Origin: Bacteroidota bacterium
GTDB taxonomy: Bacteria > Bacteroidota > Bacteroidia > 2-12-FULL-35-15
DNA: 37,313 nucleotides
Reading direction: 5' to 3'
Assembly (NCBI GenBank): GCA_947466965.1
Contig: CANIFU010000026.1
Span: 1-37,313, forward strand
Shown in pieces: positions 1-26,449 of the stretch; the first letter of the stretch is position 1, and every line of letters starts with the position of its first letter. The notes under the pieces are model-generated. The model was given only the letters and a program-made list of their open reading frames with translations. It made no database searches and had not been told where the DNA came from. The position numbers and the translations under genes were made by a program.

Positions 1-251
1 AAATCTCCAAGGGAGAATTGTTCCAACTCACGATTAAGATTGTCTTTCTCTACATTCAAATCTCCAAGGGGGAATTGTTCCGACTCACGATTAAGATTGT
101 CTTTCTCTACATTCAAATCTCCAAGGGAGAATTGTTCCGACTCACGATTAAGATTGTCTTTCTCTACATTCAAATCTCCAAGGGGGAATTGTTCCAACTC
201 ACGATTAAGATTGTCTTTCTCTACATTCAAATCTCCAAGGGGGAATTGTTC
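1..251 (-). repeat. 57-bp in-frame tandem repeat inside murF (4.4 or more copies)
   Basis: The same 57-base unit follows itself without spacers from 251 down to the window edge. 57 is 19 codons, so the frame stays open: each unit encodes EQF(P/S)LGDLNVEKDNLNRE(L/S). Copies differ only at C/T positions that change Pro/Ser and Leu/Ser. The near-identity points to recent expansion by slippage or recombination. The array is open at the window edge, so the copy number is a minimum. Confidence 0.95.
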
Positions 252-419
252 GTCAATTACAGCATAGGCGCAACCCATTTCAATTGCTTTTTCAGCAAAC
301 AGATTTCCGTTAAAATTTCCGCCTTTGAGAGCAAAGAAGATCGATCCGGGTTTGATGTCCCGTGTATCCGTGCAAACGGAAGGGTGTTTTAAAAAAACAG
401 AATAAAGTTTGTCTATCAT
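1..419 (-). CDS. murF: MurF, UDP-N-acetylmuramoyl-tripeptide--D-alanyl-D-alanine ligase (N-terminal part, runs off the window)
   Basis: MurF adds D-Ala-D-Ala to UDP-MurNAc-tripeptide, the last cytoplasmic step of peptidoglycan precursor synthesis. Only the first ~139 codons are present. The ATG is at 419-417. The start reads MIDKLYSVFLKHPSVCTDTR, then GSIFFALKGGNFNGNLFA and a stretch ending GCAYAVIDE, which is the typical domain-1 pattern of Bacteroidota MurF (TDSR..., IFFALKG..FNGN.FA, YA.IDE). Directly after AVIDE the reading frame enters at least 4.4 copies of a 19-residue repeat (see the repeat entry). The family normally continues there with a short loop leading to the nucleotide-binding domain, which lies outside the window. 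The gene lies 54 bases downstream of nadE on the same strand, so the two may be cotranscribed. Identity is well supported by the N-terminus; whether the protein is functional cannot be judged here. Confidence 0.85.
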   Translation of the reverse strand, partial: MIDKLYSVFLKHPSVCTDTRDIKPGSIFFALKGGNFNGNLFAEKAIEMGCAYAVIDEQFPLGDLNVEKDNLNRELEQFPLGDLNVEKDNLNRESEQFSLGDLNVEKDNLNRESEQFPLGDLNVEKDNLNRELEQFSLGD

Positions 420-473: not shown

Positions 474-1253
474 TTATTTTAGTTTTTCCGGAATAATACA
501 AACCGGAATCGGATTCATTTTGTGCTGATTTGCCTTATTCATTTTGGTAAAAATATCCAACACTATTTTTTGTCTTTCGCTCAATGTTAACCGTTCGCCA
601 TTAAGTTCAATAAATTTCATAGCCCATTCCAATTCATCGTATGTTGCGCCAATCTGATCTTCATCACTTCTACTATCAGCAAAAAGGCCATCGGTTGGAG
701 CCGCGTTTAAAATAGAACTGACGACACCAATTTCTTTGGCAAGCGCATACACATCAGATTTCATTAAATCAGCTATTGGGCTAAGATCAACACCCCCATC
801 ACCATATTTTGTAAAAAAGCCAATTCCAAAATCTTCCACTTTATTTCCAGTACCTGCAACCAACATTTTATGGTGACAAGCAAAAGCATATAAGGTGGTC
901 ATACGTAATCGCGCGCGCGTATTTGCCATTGTGAGCCAGTCATTAATATCAGAAGGGAATGCAGCGCTAATTGATTTAAACGTTTCTGTAAGTTCCACTT
1001 CATGTGAGGAAACATTTTTGAAATTAGACTTTAGCCAGAGAATATGTTCCTGTCCACGATCGTATTCGGCTTTGTGCTGATGGATAGGCATGTTCAAACA
1101 AATAACAGACTTACCTGTTTTTGCACATAGCGTAGAAGTGAGAGCAGAATCTATTCCACCAGAAATGCCAATTACGAAGCCAGTGGTATTACTTTGTTCG
1201 GAATAATTGGACAACCAATTAACAATGTGCTGAATAACGTCTTGTTTTTTCAT
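474..1253 (-). CDS. nadE: NH3-dependent NAD+ synthetase
   Basis: NadE amidates deamido-NAD+ to NAD+ using ATP and ammonia, the final step of NAD biosynthesis in the cytoplasm. The 259-residue protein has the ATP-pyrophosphatase loop SGGIDSAL at residues 31-38, the MANTRARLRM segment near 108-117, and the GTGNKVEDFGIGFFTKYGDG stretch followed by DLSPIADLMKS, all typical of NadE. There is no N-terminal nitrilase (glutaminase) domain, so this is the short ammonia-dependent form. The ATG at 1253 is the only sensible start. A rho-independent terminator (1261-1298) separates it from the outer-membrane gene upstream, so it probably has its own promoter in or near that short gap, and it may be cotranscribed with murF. 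Confidence 0.95.
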   Translation of the reverse strand: MKKQDVIQHIVNWLSNYSEQSNTTGFVIGISGGIDSALTSTLCAKTGKSVICLNMPIHQHKAEYDRGQEHILWLKSNFKNVSSHEVELTETFKSISAAFPSDINDWLTMANTRARLRMTTLYAFACHHKMLVAGTGNKVEDFGIGFFTKYGDGGVDLSPIADLMKSDVYALAKEIGVVSSILNAAPTDGLFADSRSDEDQIGATYDELEWAMKFIELNGERLTLSERQKIVLDIFTKMNKANQHKMNPIPVCIIPEKLK

Positions 1254-25991: not shown

Positions 25992-26449
25992 GGTGATTGG
26001 GTGATGGGATGATTGGGTGATGGGGTGATGGGGTGATGGGTGATGGGTGATGGAGTAATTGGGTGATGGGTTGATTGGTGATGAAGTAATTGGGTGATTG
26101 GGTGATGGGGTGATGGAGTGATGGAGTGATGGAGTGATTGGGTGATTGGTGATGGAGTAATTGGGTGATGGGTTGATGGGTTGATGGGTGATGGGTGATG
26201 GGTGATGGGGTGATGGGTGATTGGGTGATGGGGTGATGAAGTAATTGGGTGATTGGGTGATGGGGTGATGAAGTAATTGGGTGATGGGTGATTGGTGATG
26301 GGGTGATGGGTGATGGGTGATTGTTGATGGGGTGATGGGGTGATGAAGTAATTGGGTGATGGGGTCATGGGGTGATAGGTGATGGGTGATTGGTGATTGT
26401 TGATTGGTGATTGGTGATTGGTGATTGGTGATTGAGTGATTGAGTGATG
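25992..26449. repeat. G-rich minisatellite of 7-8 bp units, potential G-quadruplex array
   Basis: This fills nearly the whole 524-base gap between the unknown membrane gene and pssA. The plus strand is made of TGATGGG/TGATTGG units (7 or 8 bases), with a larger phrase GATG(G/A)AGTAATTGGGTGAT recurring at 26049, 26080, 26151, 26235, 26267 and 26342. At 26163-26217 eight GGG runs are separated by loops of 4-5 bases (TGAT or TTGAT), which fits a G-quadruplex rule several times over. The long open frame on the minus strand (Pro/His/Ser/Ile-rich) is an artefact of the repeat. Confidence 0.95.

Follow-up and report, generated by a model that had tools for sequence, protein, structure and literature searches.

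A dispersed hairpin element as the probable seed of an in-frame tandem repeat in murF of a Bacteroidota bacterium

How does a conserved gene such as murF come to carry a long tandem repeat that leaves its reading frame open? The question is raised by the first 251 nucleotides of a 37,313-nucleotide stretch of DNA (the window) from a Bacteroidota genome (G000; 3.1 Mb, 128 contigs, 95.6% completeness), whose nearest named relatives are Bacteroidota MAGs. The window is the entire contig C26, and the repeat array is therefore truncated at the contig end. The initial annotation had described a 57-bp, 4.4-unit in-frame array in the N-terminal domain of MurF, and this description was confirmed. TRF detected a period of 57 at positions 1–251 (4.4 copies, 97% matches, zero indels, score 474), the minus-strand reading frame is open from 419 to 3 through the array without a stop or frameshift, and the encoded N-terminus matches TIGR01143, the model of MurF, a UDP-MurNAc-tripeptide--D-Ala-D-Ala ligase (E 4.3e-10, residues 17–63, 39 bits). 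The units translate as EQFPLGDLNVEKDNLNREL/S, with 19 residues per 57 bp, from which tryptic peptides such as ESEQFPLGDLNVEK are predicted. The copies differ at two sites only, CCC/TCC and TTG/TCG, which are the Pro/Ser and Leu/Ser differences noted initially. The repeat, in the loop after the VIDE motif, is recently expanded, as initially proposed. The neighbors of murF are nadE, gldB, and gldC, and the nadE–murF order is conserved in relatives. The features of the locus are as follows.

3–419, minus strand: murF, N-terminal 139 residues, truncated by the contig end (open frame; TIGR01143, E 4.3e-10; orthologous to the complete MurF of relatives)
1–251, minus strand: 57-bp in-frame array of 4.4 units, at 251–195, 194–138, 137–81, 80–24, and 23–1 (partial) (TRF and unit comparison)
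232–247, minus strand: element-derived first 16 bases of unit 1, AATTCCCCCTTGGAGA (sequence also heads dispersed elements and the terminal element of G025)
175–190, 118–133, 61–76, and 4–19, minus strand: element-derived 16 bases of units 2–5 (one base changed, CCC>TCC, in units 3 and 5)
474–1253, minus strand: nadE, upstream neighbor of murF and synteny anchor (PF02540; gene order in relatives)

Another tandem array lies in the window at 25992–26449. It is intergenic, consists of 8/16-bp units (GGTGATTGGGTGATGG, ~60 x 8 bp), and is open as a 196-amino acid frame of ITNHQSP-type repeats that is probably no gene.

The complete array has no second occurrence in G000; the head of its unit does recur. 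Alignment of the dispersed copies yielded a sharply bounded 34-bp consensus, ATTCCCCCTTGGAGAAGGGGGCTAGGGGGATTGA, with little conservation in the flanking bases, and a second version of the element is centered on CTTTGAAAAG. The element has a hairpin (CCCCCTT-AAGGGGG) and a G-rich tail (AGGGGGATTGA). Hairpin pairing is kept in 98.3% of alignment cells, with double changes in 11 sequences at one pair only; the DNA fold of a single element lies 1.1–1.6 sd below shuffles, and its energetics alone are unremarkable. No Rfam RNA family was found over the element at the gathering score in the four sources scanned. A literature search found no paper printing the core sequence or its peptides, which is no proof that none exists.

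The element is concentrated in the nearest relatives of G000. With up to three mismatches, the core pattern occurs at 18 places in G000, 21 in G025, 15 in G016, 10 in G035, 3 in G010, and 2 in G003; of the 59 genomes searched, 50 lack it. The reversed pattern, used as a control, gave 0 matches in all 59. Copy counts come from searches and retrieved stretches, and those of the covariance model, which scored 112 candidates in each of the 59 genomes, are lower bounds: at least 48 in G000, 54 in G025, 68 in G016, and 65 in G035. By this model the nearest relatives have from at least 18 to at least 68 copies, and most other genomes few or none. A stricter pattern was found in two of 394 other Bacteroidota genomes sampled across the phylum. 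By a relaxed pattern, 98 of 123 copies lie outside long frames, and those within genes are probably the ones that selection has spared. Elements also occur directly upstream of start codons at four loci (L109, L093, L103, and L123), where they may affect translation initiation; at L109, GGGGGATTGACATGAG precedes a homoserine acetyltransferase-like gene.

The murF loop exists in several states among these species, as revealed by the comparison of copy number that the initial annotation had called for. Complete MurF was read in relatives, none from G000 itself. In G025, a sister species of the same genus, the orthologous array is composed of two units and a terminal piece and is located within a 94-kb contig. 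The frame is unbroken past the array through GITGSNGKTT, giving a complete 479-amino acid MurF with a full-length match to TIGR01143 (372.4 bits, curated cut-off 288.6). The expected continuation into the nucleotide-binding domain is thus seen where the gene is complete. The array has at least 4.4 units in G000 and, in G025, two plus the terminal piece; murF of G035 and of G003 has a single element, and that of G010 and the outgroups has none. G010, G006, G031, and the remaining relatives examined have a short MurF loop with no insert.

One explanation for these observations is plain slippage of native loop sequence, the likeness to other repeats being due to chance. Short G- or C-rich repeats arise easily, and the modest fold of a single element speaks for such an origin. 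However, the whole 40-position covariance model is matched at E of about 1e-15 by the copy that ends the G025 array (1.4e-15) and by the lone copies of G003 (2.3e-15) and G035 (5.1e-15), the reversed pattern is absent from all 59 genomes, and a loop of this kind is missing from species in which elements are few or absent. Plain slippage is refuted for the G025 terminal copy, and as an account of the locus we regard it as very unlikely.

A second explanation is that assembly falsely extended a contig end with the array and that murF is normal. The array is located exactly at the contig end, the remainder of murF is absent from the G000 assembly, and in G000 the element lies within roughly 300 bases of ~10 contig ends. 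With the array as query, short matches were found in G000 at the ends of other contigs; these matches are themselves arrays (units of 48, 80, and 81 bp) and have a CCAAGGGG-type motif in common with the head of the murF unit. Against an artefact, G025 is a different species and has the same unit inside its 94-kb contig, which contains the gene from end to end. Furthermore, querying G000 with the sequence that follows murF in G025 identified C32 as the next contig beyond the gene, and C32 ends in its own 139-bp tandem array, which also carries the element. The ~1.1 kb of murF missing from G000 is therefore flanked by an array on either side, and real arrays would cause just such a contig break. 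An assembly artefact is accordingly a very remote prospect.

The account we favor, and consider very probable, is that a dispersed hairpin element inserted into a MurF loop with the frame kept, was then duplicated in tandem, and is most likely selfish in the manner of the Rickettsia palindromic elements (RPE). The insert is located after VIDE, in a loop that connects two strands of MurF domain 1, and the single-element peptides there are FPLGEGGRGID in G035 and FPLEKGARGID in G003. In the frame of murF, the 34-bp element would meet a stop (TAG in CTAG); the murF copies are 33 bp. In G025 and G035 the sequence is GGGGGC-AGGGGG (33 bp), which removes the in-frame TAG, while in G003 a different base has been lost, in the hairpin loop, changing the frame ahead of the TAG. 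That two different one-base losses have each preserved the frame suggests that an intact protein was selected for. The unit in G000 and G025 joins the opening 16 bases of the element to 41 bases of other sequence, and in G025 the array ends with a complete element. The 41-bp spacer may itself have been born by slippage.

From these sequences, the 34-bp element would have inserted, presumably by transposition, into the surface loop in the lineage of G000, G025, G035, and G003, with a net gain of ~six residues (about eleven added and about five of the old loop lost), and loss of one base would have kept the murF frame open. In the G000/G025 lineage, the first 16 element bases and the 41 others would then have undergone tandem duplication, yielding the 19-residue repeat, whose copy number probably changes through replication slippage or unequal recombination. 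The number of insertions can be read in more than one way. In a MurF tree with the loop left out, G035 and G003 group with the insert-less G010; the placement of G025 next to these three is less well supported (83/68). Because G010 lacks the insert despite this grouping, a single insertion needs later loss or recombinational replacement; otherwise more than one insertion took place. One gain and one loss, recombinational replacement, and repeated insertion at murF are all possible.

The initial annotation had called murF essential, which is unproven here. G000 contains a second MurF-type domain, in a MurF–alanine racemase fusion on contig C4 (L057, 291–2930), and its presence in the same genome weakens the case for essentiality. 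The fusion scores 292.8 bits to the murF model, above the cut-off, and its P-loop motif GSNGKT is intact. The standalone G000 murF could then be decaying, with the fusion taking its place. However, the gene is open in the relatives examined, the part present in G000 has no stop or frameshift, and dN/dS of murF is 0.06–0.08 among the carriers G025, G035, and G003. These substitution rates show strong purifying selection on the standalone gene in the carriers, and we consider decay highly improbable.

The element also occurs in frame in other genes. In pyrF it is present in tandem copies, some partial (two in G000, three in G025, and two in G035), and in G003, G006, G010, G016, and G031 the same PyrF loop is occupied by a related version that resembles TTGTCCCCCTCTGGAGGGGGTAGGGGGAGGA. 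Further in-frame copies are found in a flavin amine oxidase of G035, in an allantoicase of G002, and, in G042, in the primase gene dnaG, where the copy lies past the catalytic core. DUF559 proteins of G000, G025, and G016 have C-terminal element arrays that read SIPLAPFSKGE, the DUF559 assignment having been tested on the G025 protein. In these endonuclease-like genes (L106, L090, and L110), the arrays occupy an orthologous place and differ in copy number across the three species; the spacer differs in G016. The initial interpretation was thus supported in part, having missed the dispersed palindromic seed and its presence in pyrF, dnaG, and other genes.

The structural context of the insert was evaluated with an AlphaFold model of a one-element MurF (L142, identical to the G035 protein at the site), which had a mean pLDDT of 79.8. 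Its best match is 3zl8 (Z 33.0, rmsd 3.1, 412 residues aligned), and the MurF fold is thus kept in the model with one element. The element residues form the longest low-confidence stretch, with residues 61–67 at pLDDT <50, between strands 52–55 and 72–74. The gap between the VIDE and FLV strands, ~8 residues in Acinetobacter baumannii MurF, is 53 in G025. The window fragment, which has the array version, gave no usable model when folded alone (pLDDT 40.5). Of the two possibilities raised initially, the model supports a tolerated loop, while a new structural element appears unlikely given that the element residues are the least confident of the model.

The insert might instead be functional, with copy number tuning the loop length of MurF (and PyrF) as an adaptive contingency locus. 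Copy number does vary between species in murF, pyrF, and the DUF559 genes, and the frames are conserved. Set against this are the unrelated nature of the host proteins, the low confidence of residues 61–67, and the location of most copies outside long frames; the comparison, moreover, is at the level of species. We find a functional insert improbable, and the MurF insert is most likely tolerated, in a loop that may be neutral.

How the element is mobilized was approached through transposases. No transposase tied to the element was found: the sole PF01797 (Y1) gene detected in G000 and in G025 has no flanking core copy. This gene (L222 on C8 of G000; L223 on C6 of G025) is single-copy, of the RAYT type, and has its own flanking palindrome, CGCAGGTTGAAAACCTGCG. 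RAYT was rejected as the mobilizer, as Y1 genes and the element are distributed differently (no Y1 match was obtained in G010, which carries the element, and Y1 is present in many genomes with few or no elements) and the Y1 gene of G000 and G025 is flanked by CGCAGGTTGAAAACCTGCG. The element has a hairpin, and among the sites compared there was no clean empty-site pair displaying a target-site duplication. No match to the element was found in phages. A 29-base, 93% match occurs upstream of mobC in plasmid pBM200 (L328, 1639–1667); matches of this type on mobilizable Priestia megaterium plasmids possibly correspond to an oriT hairpin and may be due to chance. These weak 29-base matches were taken as resemblance only, and not as the element on plasmids.

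The best analogues of the element are RPE and intragenic REPs. RPE are dispersed and occur in frame in many unrelated conserved genes, and an RPE-bearing enzyme, gmk, was shown to stay active (PMC2229807, PMC10969869). They are ~105–150 bp and specific to Rickettsia (PMC2229807). The element is similar in being in frame in several unrelated genes (murF, pyrF, dnaG, allantoicase, amine oxidase, and DUF559), but differs in its length of 34 bp, its sequence, its occurrence in Bacteroidota, and its tandem amplification within genes. Intragenic GTAG/CGTC REPs are stem-loops of 20–40 bp, mostly intergenic, with some in frame in replication, repair, and other genes, and some occurring as dimers or groups (PMC3733652). 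The element is likewise a small stem-loop repeat, mostly outside long frames and with some copies in frame within genes. Unlike these REPs, its aligned copies have neither GTAG nor CGTC at either end, it has the G-rich tail, and no RAYT association was found. The BrickBuilt MITE of Porphyromonas gingivalis is also a dispersed Bacteroidota element with a minisatellite, but its unit is 23 nt, its ends are inverted repeats, and all its copies are intergenic (PMC4596501). By analogy with RPE, the element is most likely selfish and non-autonomous, its intragenic copies surviving only in frame and in a tolerant loop or tail.

We give roughly even weight to the broader reading, that this is a previously undescribed Bacteroidota palindromic element that invades housekeeping genes in frame and seeds tandem amplification, such that MurF and PyrF loop lengths vary between close relatives and possibly between strains. 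Rickettsia provides the best-known examples of palindromic repeats invading conserved genes in frame, REPs provide others, and the present locus is a clear case in Bacteroidota. It also makes plain why assemblies of short reads stop at genes of this kind and why pieces of conserved genes go missing from bins. As the empty, single-copy, and amplified states are preserved in sister species, the progression from insertion to frame rescue to tandem expansion can be followed step by step, offering a testable system for the tolerance of core enzymes to insertion.
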